Assembly (NCBI GenBank): GCA_017983795.1
Contig: JAGOAS010000001.1
Location: 186,001 to 250,000, forward strand
Length of the DNA: 64,000 nucleotides
Direction of reading: 5' to 3'
Source of the DNA: Piscinibacter sp.
GTDB lineage: Bacteria > Pseudomonadota > Gammaproteobacteria > Burkholderiales > Burkholderiaceae_C
A program made the position numbers and the translations under genes. Of the stretch, positions 37,278 to 40,996 are shown piece by piece. The first letter of the stretch is position 1. Each line of letters begins with the position of its first letter. Under the pieces are notes generated by a model that did not search any database, was not told the origin of the DNA, and saw only the letters and a list, made by a program, of their open reading frames with translations.

Positions 37278-39095
37278 TCAGGACGAGCGGCGGTGCTGCC
37301 GGGCCTCCTCGCGCTCGCGGGCGAACTGCTCCTCGAGCTGCTGGCGGCCCTGCTTGGCGATGGCGATCAGCTGTGCCTCGTCGCCGGTGTGCGGGCGCAT
37401 CTGCTCGACCAGCTCGAGGTTGTGGCGCCGAAAGCGCAGCGCCAGCGTGCGCGCCTGGTGGCGCTCCAGGCCGAGCAGCTCGAGCGCGCTGCGCCCGCTC
37501 ATCAGCGCCGAATCGAGCGTCTCGCGCTCGACCGCCTCGACGCCGAGATTGCGCAGCTGGTAGTAGTGCGAGACGTTGCGCGCGCGCGCCACGATGCCCA
37601 GGCGCGGGAAATGCTCGCGCACCAGCCTGGCCACCGCCACGCTCTGCTCGACGTCGTCGATGGCCAGCACGAACAGGCGCGCGCTGTCCGCGCCGGCGCT
37701 GCGCAGCAGATCGAGCCGCGTCGCGTCGCCGTAGTAGACCTGCCAGCCGAAGCGGCGCACCGCCTCGACTTGCTCGGCATCGTGCTCCAGCACGGTGGCC
37801 GAGAAGCCGCTCGCATGGAGCAGGCGGCCGACGATCTGCCCGTAGCGGCCGAAGCCGGCGATGATCACCGGCGGTGCATGCCCATCGTCGATGCGGTCGC
37901 CGATCTCGTCATACGGCGCCGCGCGGTCCTGCCGCGCATGCCGGCGTGCGCGGATGCGGTCGGAGGCGAGCAGCAGCAGCGGCGTCAGCAGCATCGACAG
38001 CGCCACCGCCGCCACCAGCAGCGAGGAGGTGGGCGCGTCGATCACGCCGGCCGTCGCGGCGCTCTGGAACACCACGAAGCCGAACTCGCCGCCTTGCGCG
38101 AGCAGGATCAGGAAGGGCGGCCGCTCGCGCGCCGGAATCGGCATGGCGCGCCCCATGCCCCACAGCACGGCCGCCTTGACGAGCAGGAAGCCGGCGACGA
38201 TGGCGGCCACGAGCAGCGGCTGCGCCAGCACCACCGCGAAGTCGATGCTCATGCCCACGGCGATGAAGAACAGGCCCAGCAGCAGGCCCTTGAAGGGCTC
38301 GATGTCGGTTTCCAGTTCGCGGCGGTATTCGCTCTCGGCCAGCAGCACCCCGGCGAGGAAGGCGCCCAGCGCCATCGACAGGCCGACCGACTGCATCAGC
38401 GCCGCCGTGGCCACCACCAGCAGCAGCGAGGCGGCGGTGAAGATCTCCGGCGTGCGGCTGCGTGCGATCCAGCGCAGCGCCGGGCGCAGCAGCAGCCGGC
38501 CGCCGAGCACGATGATGGCGATCACCGCGGCGGCCTTGGCCGCGCCCCACCAGCCGCCGCCTTCGTGTGCCGCGCCGGCGCCGGCCAGCAGCGGCACGAA
38601 GGCGAGGATCGGAATGGCGGCCACGTCCTGCAGCAGCATCACGCTGAGCACGCCCTGGCCGGAGCTCGTCGCCATCAGGTTGCGCTCGGCGAGCACGCCC
38701 AGGCCGATGGCGGTGGAGCTCATCGCCAGGCCCAGCGCGGCCACCAGCGCGATGCGCCAGTCGACGCCGCAGGCCACGCCCACGGCCGTCATCAGCGCCG
38801 CCGAACCGGCCAGCTGCACGCTGCCCCAGCCGAAGATGGGCCGGCGCAGCGCCCACAGGCGGCGCGGCTCGAGCTCGAGGCCGACGAGGAAGAGCATCAG
38901 CACCACGCCGAATTCGGCGAAGTGCAGCATGTCCTGCGGGTCGGACACCAGCTTCAGCCCCCAGGGGCCGATGACGATGCCGGCGGCGAGGTAGCCGATG
39001 ATCGAGCCCAGGCCCAGCGCCTTGGCCAGCGGCACGGCCAGCACCGCCGCGGCGAGGTAGACCAGGCTGCCGGTCAGCCAGTTGCCGTGCTCCAT
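37278..39095 (-). CDS. kefC: Kef-type potassium/proton antiporter (CPA2)
   Basis: A 605-residue antiporter of the KefB/KefC type. Residues 1-380 form about 12 membrane helices; GLGSIIGYLAAGIVIGPWGL and FLVGLELEPRRLW are family motifs. A cytoplasmic TrkA-N domain follows with the nucleotide motif IIAGFGRYGQIVGRLL near residue 410, then a charged tail. Such systems lose potassium when glutathione conjugates form, protecting against electrophiles. The kefF-like gene lies upstream on the same strand, separated by a 266-bp palindromic element. GGAG precedes the ATG. KefB and KefC cannot be told apart here. Confidence 0.88.
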   Translation of the reverse strand: MEHGNWLTGSLVYLAAAVLAVPLAKALGLGSIIGYLAAGIVIGPWGLKLVSDPQDMLHFAEFGVVLMLFLVGLELEPRRLWALRRPIFGWGSVQLAGSAALMTAVGVACGVDWRIALVAALGLAMSSTAIGLGVLAERNLMATSSGQGVLSVMLLQDVAAIPILAFVPLLAGAGAAHEGGGWWGAAKAAAVIAIIVLGGRLLLRPALRWIARSRTPEIFTAASLLLVVATAALMQSVGLSMALGAFLAGVLLAESEYRRELETDIEPFKGLLLGLFFIAVGMSIDFAVVLAQPLLVAAIVAGFLLVKAAVLWGMGRAMPIPARERPPFLILLAQGGEFGFVVFQSAATAGVIDAPTSSLLVAAVALSMLLTPLLLLASDRIRARRHARQDRAAPYDEIGDRIDDGHAPPVIIAGFGRYGQIVGRLLHASGFSATVLEHDAEQVEAVRRFGWQVYYGDATRLDLLRSAGADSARLFVLAIDDVEQSVAVARLVREHFPRLGIVARARNVSHYYQLRNLGVEAVERETLDSALMSGRSALELLGLERHQARTLALRFRRHNLELVEQMRPHTGDEAQLIAIAKQGRQQLEEQFAREREEARQHRRSS

Positions 39096-39109
39096 CAGCG
39101 CGGCTCCGA

Positions 39110-39375
39110 GGGCCTGTTCACACTACGGGAAGGCTCGCGCCGGGGTGGCCCAAGGCGCTGGGCAAGGCGCGGCGCGCCGCCCAGGCAGGCCGCCTGGGCC
39201 AGCGGCGCAACGCGGCCCAGCGCCTTGGGGTACCCCGGCCCGCAGGGTGATCTCGACAAACAGGCGCCCGCCGCGTTACACGTCTTGCCCAGGCGGCCGG
39301 CCTGGGCTGCGCCGTGCGCCTTGCGGGCGCCTGTTTGTCGAGTCACGCGAGCCTCCCCGTAGTGTGAACAGGCCC
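39110..39375. repeat. Nested palindromic element 1, between kefF and kefC
   Basis: The ends are inverted repeats: GGCCTGTTCACACTACGG at 39111-39128 and its exact complement at 39357-39374, extended by GGRAGGCTCGCG to about 29 bp with one mismatch. Inside are two side-by-side hairpins. Hairpin 1 pairs 39139-39163 with 39215-39239 (23 of 25). Hairpin 2 pairs CTCGACAAACAGGCGCCCGC (39252-39271) with 39323-39342 (20 of 20). Each is topped by the same small hairpin GCCCAGGC-N5-GCCTGGGC (39179-39199 and 39287-39307). It fills the whole gap from the last bases of kefF to 14 bases before kefC. There is no open frame in it worth calling. Confidence 0.9.
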
Positions 39376-40064
39376 TACGCCGCTGCAGGCCGGGCATCGG
39401 CCGGCACCACGCAGGCCACGCACTCGGGCAGCTCGGCGATCTCCGGCCAGTCGGGCCAGCGGGTCAGCCGCTCGGCGTACAGCGCGGCGTGCGCGGCGAT
39501 CTCGGCTTCGCTCGCGTGGTGGGCGCCGTGCAGCAGCAGCGGCGGCAGGAAGCGCATGCCGCACAGCGCCGCGGTCTGCTCCATCGGCGGCAGGAAGGCG
39601 TCGAAGAAGTAGCGGTTGTGGCCCTCGGGGCTGTAGGCCTGCTGCGAGCCGCCGGTGGACAGCGCCAGCCACAGGTCCTTGCCCTGCAGCGCCGCGCCGC
39701 CGGGGCCGTAGGCCCAGCCGAAGGCCAGCACCTCGTCGAGCCAGAGCTTGAGCAGCGGCGGCAGCGAATACCAGTGCACCGGGCACTGCATGACCACCAG
39801 CCGCGCCGCGGCGAGGCGCGCGCGCTCGGCGGCGCCGTCGATGAAGTAATCGGGGTAGAGCGCGTAGAGGTCGCGCAGCTCGATGCGGCCGTTCGAGGCG
39901 GCGGCCGCGCCAGCGGCGGCTTGCAGCATCGCCCGGTTGATCCGCGATTGCTCCATCTGCGGATGGGCCGCCAGCACCAGCACCTCGGGGGCGGCGCCCT
40001 CGTTGCGCGGCGGGTCGGTGTCGGGTTGCAAGGGAGGGGCGGGCTGCGGGCTTGCCGCTACCAT
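39375..40064 (-). CDS. kefF: KefF/KefG-type NAD(P)H oxidoreductase
   Basis: A 229-residue flavodoxin-fold quinone reductase. After a ~25-residue Pro-rich N-terminal extension come VLVLAAHPQMEQSRINRAML (phosphate-binding loop of FMN), QCPVHWYSLPPLLKLWLDEV, and LSTGGSQQAYSPEGHNRY, the signature of Kef ancillary proteins. Such subunits bind to and activate KefB/KefC and reduce quinones. The antiporter gene follows on the same strand. The gene is flanked on both sides by palindromic elements with the same 18-bp ends; the stop codon touches element 1 and the start lies 27 bases from element 2. Confidence 0.85.
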   Translation of the reverse strand: MVAASPQPAPPLQPDTDPPRNEGAAPEVLVLAAHPQMEQSRINRAMLQAAAGAAAASNGRIELRDLYALYPDYFIDGAAERARLAAARLVVMQCPVHWYSLPPLLKLWLDEVLAFGWAYGPGGAALQGKDLWLALSTGGSQQAYSPEGHNRYFFDAFLPPMEQTAALCGMRFLPPLLLHGAHHASEAEIAAHAALYAERLTRWPDWPEIAELPECVACVVPADARPAAA

Positions 40065-40091
40065 AACCGCAAAGCCCGACCCAGACAGACT

Positions 40092-40359
40092 GGGGCCTGT
40101 TCACACTACGGATGCCAGATGCGTTGCCACGAGAAGGCCCGCGAGCAAGGCGCGAACCGCAGCCCAGGCTGGACGCCTGGGCAAGGTTTGCAACGCCGCG
40201 CGCGGGCCTTCTCGTGGCAACCCGAAGGGAACGGGCCTGGCAGCGCGCAGGGCGGCGTTGCGCTCCTAGCGGAGGCGGCCAGCCTTCGCGTCGTCGCGCG
40301 CCTTGCCCTGCGCGCTGCCAGGCCCGTTCGCACTGGCATCCGTAGTGTGAACAGGCCCC
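40092..40359. repeat. Nested palindromic element 2, between kefF and parA
   Basis: This fills most of the 317-base gap between the divergent kefF and parA-like genes. Perfect 27-bp terminal inverted repeats lie at 40092-40118 and 40333-40359, starting with the same 18-bp core as element 1 (GGCCTGTTCACACTACGG). Inside, hairpin 1 pairs 40123-40143 with 40201-40221 (21 of 21) and carries the apical GCCCAGGC-TGGAC-GCCTGGGC (40162-40182). Hairpin 2 pairs 40230-40253 with 40305-40328 (24 of 24). The stem sequences are unlike those of element 1, yet each stem is perfect. Promoters for the two genes must lie in or beside it. Confidence 0.9.
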
Positions 40360-40381
40360 TCAAGCCAGGACGGAGGTCCCG

Positions 40382-40996
40382 ATGCCGGTGATCGTGGTGG
40401 CCAATCCCAAGGGAGGCGTGGGCAAGAGCACGCTGTCGACCAACCTCGCGGGCTATCTGGCCGCGCGGGGGCACGCGGTGATGCTCGGCGACGTGGATCG
40501 CCAGCAGTCGGCGCTGACCTGGCTCTCGCTGCGGCCCAAGCCGCTGCCGGCCATCGGCACCTGGGACACGCACGGCGAGGTGGTGCGTCCGCCCAAGGGC
40601 ACGACCCACGTGGTGCTGGACACGCCCGCCGGCCTGCACGGCAAGCGCCTCGACGAGGTGATGAAGCTGGCCGACAAGGTGATCATCCCGATCCAGCCCA
40701 GCATCTTCGACATCCACGCCACGCATGCCTTCGTCGCCGAGCTGCTGGCGCACCGGCGCAGCGACAAGGTCAAGTTCGGCATCGTCTGCATGCGCGTGCG
40801 CGAAGGCACGCTCTCGGCCGAACACCTGCGCGCTTTCGTCGACAAGCTGAAGGTGCCGCTGATCGGCCAGCTGCGCGACACGCAGAACTACGTGCACCTG
40901 GCCGCGCACGGGCTGACGCTGTTCGACGTGAGCTCGTCGCGCTTCGAGCGCGATCACGAGCAATGGAAGAGCATTCTCGAATGGGTGAACGCATGA
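40382..40996 (+). CDS. Orphan ParA-family ATPase
   Basis: A 204-residue deviant Walker A ATPase: VVANPKGGVGKSTLSTNLAG with both signature lysines (Lys10 and Lys15), then a short GDVDRQQSAL (A' motif) and HVVLDTPAGL (Walker B). Such proteins place plasmids, chromosomes or protein clusters. There is no ParB gene or parS-like site nearby, so it is not a chromosome partition locus; a role in positioning some other cargo is possible. It overlaps the MaoC gene by 4 bases. GGAGG lies before the ATG. Confidence 0.88.
   Translation: MPVIVVANPKGGVGKSTLSTNLAGYLAARGHAVMLGDVDRQQSALTWLSLRPKPLPAIGTWDTHGEVVRPPKGTTHVVLDTPAGLHGKRLDEVMKLADKVIIPIQPSIFDIHATHAFVAELLAHRRSDKVKFGIVCMRVREGTLSAEHLRAFVDKLKVPLIGQLRDTQNYVHLAAHGLTLFDVSSSRFERDHEQWKSILEWVNA

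Follow-up and report, generated by a model that had tools for sequence, protein, structure and literature searches.

The interiors of MITEs are usually regarded as disposable filler between the ends. ERIC elements are intergenic, MITE-like imperfect palindromes, and both they and the Correia/NEMIS elements are single palindromes with ends other than those considered here. IS870 belongs to the IS427 group. For Correia/NEMIS elements, lengths of ~107 and ~155 bp are given in the excerpts of the literature used here, which also included parts of PMC10969869 and PMC2229807. MITEPsy1 of Pseudomonas syringae, as described in excerpts of PMC3189936, is 100 bp long, carries the ends GGAAGGTCTGAAAAAGCC, inserts at CTAG or YTAA with a reported 4-nt duplication and shows probable kinship with IS5. 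IS427-group elements from Paracoccus measure 832-865 bp and mostly generate 2-bp duplications (PMC3281130, in part), and a title cited in PMC6471742 gives CTAG as the target of IS870. REP and REPIN sequences are repeated paired hairpins in an inverted arrangement, partly on the basis of excerpts of PMC2817692 and partly as general knowledge. In the literature searched, which took in few subscription papers and not ISfinder, no description of the family reported below was found.

The window analysed in this study, a stretch of 64,000 nucleotides from a Piscinibacter sp. genome, contains two elements of 266 bp, neither of which is assigned a strand. Element 1 (39110..39375) lies between kefC and kefF, and element 2 (40093..40358) between kefF and a gene for a ParA-like ATPase. 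We consider it likely that both are MITEs with ends for IS427-like transposases of the IS5 family, and that their interior is an old structural module whose fold is needed for spread. The limits of both elements rest on their terminal inverted repeats (TIRs), on their folding z-scores and on the end bases of 43 related copies. The window holds exactly four copies of the 18-mer GGCCTGTTCACACTACGG (at 39111 and 40094, and on the minus strand at 39357 and 40340), where 0.03 are expected by chance, which confirms the shared 18-bp TIRs described by the first-pass annotation. In 43/43 copies, a G adjoins the outer side of this 18-mer at the left end and a C at the right end. These constant bases were therefore counted as part of the element, and the ends were set at 39110-39375 and 40093-40358; the limits proposed earlier for element 1 are thereby kept, and those for element 2 (40092-40359) each lay one base too far out. 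The resulting 19-bp TIRs are exact and identical in both window elements, and 43 relatives with TIRs stand beside them. In element 1, the left TIR (GGGCCTGTTCACACTACGG; 39110..39128, plus strand) begins a pairing that continues to about 39139; in element 2, the left TIR (40093..40111, plus strand) is followed by perfect pairing onward to 40118. The right TIRs lie at 39357..39375 and 40340..40358, both on the minus strand. The outer arms are 31 nt long and 97% paired in one window element, and 27 nt long and 100% paired in the other.

Each element follows the same plan, in which an outer stem formed from the TIRs encloses two hairpins of ~105 nt in opposite orientation, here called alpha and beta. 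Strands are given for the hairpins in motif orientation, and bit scores refer to R1, a covariance model of one hairpin. In element 1, the beta hairpin (39137..39242, plus; C45:225137-225242; 75.4 bits) precedes the alpha hairpin (39244..39348, minus; C45:225244-225348; 96 bits), and in element 2 the alpha hairpin (40121..40224, plus; C45:226121-226224; 102.7 bits) precedes the beta hairpin (40226..40331, minus; C45:226226-226331; 88.8 bits). The beta hairpin of element 1 consists of a stem, a CAAGGCG ... GCAACG core and an apical GCCCAGGC/GCCTGGGC stem. As claimed before, the apical GCCCAGGC-N5-GCCTGGGC is present on three of the four hairpins; the apical stem of the beta hairpin of element 2 deviates from it (GCGGAGGC/GCCTTCGC). 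The inner stems are near-perfect, and only their counts, previously given as 23/25, 20/20, 21/21 and 24/24, shift slightly: the arms measure 28 nt (89% paired) and 20 nt (100%) in element 1, and 24 nt (96%) and 25 nt (100%) in element 2. RNA folding bears out the earlier picture of an outer stem with side-by-side hairpins, in a fold that takes up nearly the entire element, with minimum free energies of -229.1 kcal/mol (z = -14.78) for element 1 and -232.5 kcal/mol (z = -19.75) for element 2, and with 0/200 shuffled sequences as stable as either; the fold model adds a tiny 2-bp hairpin between the two large ones. The reading frames that overlap the elements were read by eye and look like chance GC-rich frames, and by this reading neither element holds a transposase gene; at 266 bp, both are also smaller than the roughly 600 bp taken as the upper size of MITEs. 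An Rfam search of window positions 38900-40600 with E-values up to 1 returned no family at gathering score. Four matches to microRNAs below the gathering score were rejected as generic hairpins.

The genes around the elements show that both are insertions. The kefF gene (39375..40064, minus strand; KefF, NF002044 above cut-off) ends in a TAG stop codon at 39375-39377 that overlaps the final base of element 1, and kefC (37278..39095, minus strand; NF002924 above cut-off) lies downstream of it on the same strand. The ParA-like ATPase gene (40382-40996), whose best NCBIfam match, ParA_partition, is under cut-off, adjoins element 2 and is divergent from kefF, so that element 2 occupies the gap between the two; in same-genus relatives the ParA-like gene is found in the same position. 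The kefF/kefC junction lacks element 1 in five relatives, and the kefF/ParA-like junction lacks element 2 in six. At these orthologous junctions about 10-110 bp separate the matched segments and no such insert is present, and both window elements are therefore insertions. As to occupied versus empty sites, which the first-pass annotation had proposed to compare, junctions free of the elements thus exist, and a letter-for-letter empty site was not seen, the chromosomal orthologues being too diverged for target letters to be read. A pair of empty and occupied sites was also sought on plasmids, where no record had both flanks and no element.

The elements are not confined to this locus. The genome itself contains two more full copies (on C5 and C27) and several truncated ones, and the end sequence is found with at most one mismatch in 14/149 relatives, this genome counted. 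The window end also occurs on contigs of P. defluvii SH-1 and P. caeni MQ-18, and the end preceded by CTAG in 36/399 genomes of the taxonomic family, a few of which carry the IS itself. Measured over the 18-bp ends, most of the distinct end pairs (25/31) have lengths of 262-264 bp; the remaining six span 51, 149, 180, 185, 294 and 321 bp, and 21 end loci, some of them at the same place, have no pair. In the set of 43 copies, which was restricted by choice to 255-275 bp and whose length statistics are conditional on this, the lengths are 264 bp (n=25), 263 bp (n=11), 262 bp (n=3) and other (n=4). These copies beyond the present genome support the earlier suggestion of non-autonomous mobile elements that form a structured family. 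Shorter forms of about 29-51 bp with both ends were also seen (L029, L035, L065, L069, L088, L089, L122, L034), most of them adjoining TA; their form suggests internal deletion, to which palindromes are prone. Two copies in one genome (G012; L026 and L056, 294 and 321 bp) have an almost identical extra block of ~30 bp in one hairpin core, and the longer of them has a second extra block in its middle, showing that insertions are tolerated. In 2/86 hairpins (L105 beta and L108 alpha), the core lies in reverse orientation inside its stem, as though recombination between the two arms had flipped it.

The flanks of the 43 copies carry a target signature. TA adjoins the element on the left in 34/43 copies, on the right in 36/43 and on both sides in 29/43. 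Among these 29, the implied targets are CTAG (16), CTAA (6), TTAG (3), GTAG (2), CTAT (1) and ATAG (1). Outside the left edge, C is present in just 23/29, while the right edge is C in 43/43; a 4-bp CTAG repeat therefore does not fit all copies. On the simplest reading of these flanks, insertion would duplicate 2 bp, TA, within a YTAR target. The statement that no target duplication is evident was thus wrong for the family and holds for the two window copies, whose eroded flanks caused the signature to be missed.

Judged from sequence, the likely mobilisers are IS5-family elements of about 800-853 bp with the same ends. An 802-bp element (L090) with the ends GGCCTGTTAACACTA and CTAG flanks contains two overlapping IS5-family transposase frames, with PF13340 and PF01609 above cut-off and NF033580 above cut-off in one of the two ORFs; 40/399 genomes of the taxonomic family carry it or one of its DNA relatives. 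Twenty such loci, L090 included, were fetched and scanned with TA flanks as a search condition, and 16 of them have end repeats that match at least 12 of 16 bases next to TA, the typical ends being GGGCCTGTTAACACAA on one side and GGGC(C/G)TGTTAACACTA on the other. MITEs with GGGCCTGTTAACACTA and GGGCGTGTTAACACTA ends exist, and one genome (G037) holds a MITE and an IS that both carry GGGCCTGTTAACACTAC. In a further genome (G574), the MITE ends read AACCCATTTCATAAATAG, unlike the window ends, and an 853-bp IS5-family element reproduces the 18 terminal bases of the MITE exactly at one end and with 1-2 differences at the other, in 8/8 loci; many equal-scoring copies in this genome suggest recent spread. 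IS-like elements of ~821 bp in a Gemmatimonas MAG and of ~814 bp in a Nitrospira MAG begin with the same 19 bp as the window elements, without a mismatch. Between the window elements and these ISs only the ends match, interior matches being at chance level (best E 0.08). The partner ISs, about 800-853 bp long with TA flanks, are provisionally placed in the IS427 group by their length and flanks.

In the genome of the window, no partner IS was detected by a PF13340 search or by a search for DNA relatives of L090. PF13340 was found in 9/30 mostly multi-copy hosts. Among 30 IS loci fetched from these nine, with one MITE end tested per host, both ends are MITE-like only in eight loci of G574 and in 2/3 of G353, a genome in which no MITE was seen; in 7/9 hosts, the PF13340 loci do not carry the one type of MITE end tested. 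PF01609, present in 4/12 hosts, gave 0/7 loci with a matching end, again with one MITE end tested per host. Carriers of the MITE (36) and of the IS (40) overlap weakly among the 399 genomes (7 against 3.6 expected, P 0.055), and in two of the seven shared genomes (G353 and G425) it is the IS that accounts for the end match. Because the PF13340 and PF01609 loci of most hosts lack the MITE end, partners seem often to have been lost or to be of types outside those searched. For the present end type, there is good support for regarding the elements as MITEs with an IS5-type mobiliser. The co-occurring transposase that the first-pass annotation had suggested looking for is likely to be an IS5-family DDE transposase of IS427-like type rather than an IS200/REP-type nuclease, as the shared ends in G037 and G574 indicate, and none was found in the genome of the window. 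An IS630 element, whose transposase gene adjoins one Azotobacter copy, was rejected as mobiliser: by reading, its ends are unlike those of the MITE, and it lies in the flanking CTAG. On two Azotobacter chroococcum plasmids (L361 and L363), the CTAG flank of a related MITE directly houses an IS630-family element, for which the MITE copy may have acted as a landing site.

The interior reaches further than this type of end. R1 finds 15 matches in the genome of the window, where two elements share the interior but have quite different ends (AGAGCTTGAGAGGC...). A single-hairpin element with a further end type (AGAAGGTGTGAA...) was also seen in this genome (L150; G000:C4:37907-38008). Matches occur in 103/250 genomes across the order at E 0.001 and in 53/349 genomes of a phylum sample at E 1e-5, these E-values being rough owing to a short calibration. 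At 17/32 loci, two R1 matches are neighbours on opposite strands (with a gap of about 2 bp at 16 loci and of 17 bp at one), which is the expected plan, and among the loci inspected many different ends surround the same hairpin plan. Eight hosts that were scored more fully hold 20 to 63 R1 matches per genome. The boundaries of some distant copies are visibly off, an inner TA having been picked, and no length statistics were drawn from the set that contains them. One copy (L346, from G827) matches four plasmids at 75-78% identity, two from Azotobacter, one from Pseudomonas aeruginosa and one from Halomonas, and three of the four matches span the whole 268 bp. A plasmid search with element 1, a phage search with the L346 copy and an IMG/VR scan for the exact 19-bp end each gave no match. 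Three Longimicrobiales (Gemmatimonadota) contigs (L218, L222 and L229) break off within an element whose 19-bp end is identical to that of the window elements and whose divergent hairpin plan includes GCAACGC; R1 matches two of the three weakly, and the contig breaks suggest several copies.

What is conserved in this interior is its fold. The alpha start is present on exactly one of the two hairpins in 43/43 elements, and the beta hairpin is the homologue of alpha on the opposite strand. For the alignment, 68 of 86 hairpins were kept, after removal of four with an altered motif or inverted core and of 14 near-duplicates. RNAalifold yields 31 pairs, 28 of them with changes on both sides, a count just slightly higher than in shuffles (24.9). 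The other measures differ more widely from the shuffled alignments: 93.6% of cells are paired against 63.1%, 620 cells are changed on both sides against 198, and the covariation score is 0.743 against 0.194 (at most 0.165 for slid alignments), figures that are somewhat favoured by deriving the structure from the same MAFFT alignment and that are set against shuffles which ignore relatedness. The compensatory changes that the first-pass annotation had anticipated in the stems are therefore borne out across copies, and complementarity is kept elsewhere. The internal-loop motif CNAGGCG ... GCAACG hardly varies, and the invariant or near-invariant bases comprise the internal loop with its closing pairs (AGGCG, AACG), the GCG before the stem and the CCC after it.

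Divergence between copies shows how the stems change. In 17 pairs of copies that are at most 3% apart, 4/51 changed stem pairs are compensated, 21 are changed on one side and still paired, and 26 are broken. The compensated share is 24% at 3-6% divergence, 22% at 6-10% and 44-47% above 10%; the broken share at 10-40% divergence is 41-46%, in copy pairs that are not independent and in which both copies were read in the fold of one of them, a treatment that raises the broken counts at high divergence. Since near-identical copies differ mostly by uncompensated changes, fast copying from arm to arm is not favoured. Stepwise mutation with selection on lineages that are still spreading, while resident copies decay, fits better, and selection on the fold is supported. 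Regarding the molecule that folds, isolated mismatches read in motif orientation comprise 106 G-U and 62 A-C after clustering, against 80 and 88 in alpha-first orientation, counts that depend on rough alpha/beta labels, on hairpins chosen by motif pattern and on the shared ancestry of the copies. Among the initial 82 hairpins, the counts of G-U and A-C were 30 and 12 for alpha and 19 and 27 for beta; this first set leaned to the alpha-first strand (57 vs 31), and the broad set leans to motif orientation instead. The motif strand folds better in 51/80 clusters (p 0.02). In DNA, too, G-T is the milder of these mismatches, and the G-U excess therefore cannot separate RNA from single-stranded DNA. 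A single-strand structure as the acting form is weakly favoured.

Three other explanations of the fold were weighed. It might be useful to the host in transcripts, acting in mRNAs through polarity relief, 3'-end protection or an RNase III site, and the position of element 1 between kefF and kefC on one strand, the P. aeruginosa plasmid copy between two co-directional genes and the weak G-U bias agree with such a role. We regard it as unlikely, given the orthologous junctions that lack the elements and the absence of an Rfam family at gathering score. Crude gene calls show no convincing orientation bias, with 39 sense and 24 antisense placements between tandem genes, and place elements in divergent (29/120) and convergent (20/120) gaps as well. 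The uncompensated changes between close copies also argue against a strong host function at each site. It is also unlikely that the stems are a by-product of quasi-palindrome correction, in which template switching during replication would copy one arm onto the other and the fold would have no function. Template switching at imperfect hairpins is established, the stems are near-perfect, and the 2/86 inverted cores indicate that arms can recombine; the scarcity of compensated changes among copies at most 3% apart runs counter to this process, which would moreover be expected to correct the mismatched internal-loop bases that are conserved, and which does not predict the constancy of length and motif. 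Thus, of the two origins first offered for the perfectly paired stems, selection for the fold is the better one, and a quick copying process that makes one arm complementary to its partner fares poorly, as mismatched internal loops persist beside near-perfect stems.

Unlikely too, in our assessment, is that CNAGGCG and GCAACG are bound as duplex by a host or transposition protein and that the symmetry of these sites produces the palindromes. Covarying, sequence-free stems of fixed length would then be left unexplained, as would the G-U excess, even if the conserved blocks, their regular spacing and the inverted layout, which is usual for protein sites, are what such binding would produce.

The reading as MITEs with a structural module accounts for these observations as follows. 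The ends (GGGCCTGTTNACACTA...) would probably be recognised by IS427-like transposases of the IS5 family, which would insert at YTAR and duplicate TA; the shared ends and TA flanks are observed, and transposition and duplication are deduced from them. The 266-bp interior, consisting of outer stem, alpha, tiny hairpin and beta, would be an old structural module and no leftover of the partner ISs. It persists while the ends differ, its stems drifting by compensated changes and its internal loop staying nearly fixed, and the fold would be needed for continued spread of the element. The likeliest reason is that one strand, as RNA or single-stranded DNA, may fold and offer the conserved internal loop to some shared factor; as alpha and beta point in opposite directions, one of them would be correctly oriented on whichever strand is used. 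The window copies look like old insertions in a genome with no detected partner. A wider reading, put forward tentatively and not one we would call probable, is a MITE superfamily defined by its interior, in which the double-hairpin fold, with its nearly invariant internal loop, would be a general structure-based spreading device for many IS5-type transposases, with ends re-tooled, the fold passed on across the phylum, and one active hairpin presented by either strand.

In comparison with known systems, the window elements resemble MITEPsy1 in being short and gene-less, with TIRs, a CTAG-type target and probable kinship with IS5, and differ from it, as far as the excerpts of PMC3189936 describe that element, in that a 266-bp interior fold is conserved across different ends, whereas MITEPsy1 has 100 bp and unrelated ends. 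Their partner ISs, about 800-853 bp long with TA flanks, are like the IS427 group; the window elements themselves encode no transposase by reading, and their interior has no match to the ISs. Like ERIC and Correia/NEMIS elements, they are intergenic, MITE-like imperfect palindromes; unlike these shorter elements, they have paired alpha and beta hairpins with conserved internal loops. They share inverted, repeated hairpin pairs with REP/REPIN sequences; unlike those sequences with their RAYT nucleases, they have true TIRs, TA flanks and a probable DDE-type partner, features that point elsewhere. We class the elements as MITEs whose ends are IS427-like, and infer that the fold has a role in their spread. 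They differ from known MITEs because the interior fold, instead of the ends, is the conserved part: it is kept through heavy sequence turnover and is common to elements with different ends. This offers a case for structure-dependent transposition, or for structure-dependent tolerance of a selfish element, and identifies what many of the hairpin repeats of Burkholderiales genomes are, as well as some on plasmids of Azotobacter, Pseudomonas and Halomonas.
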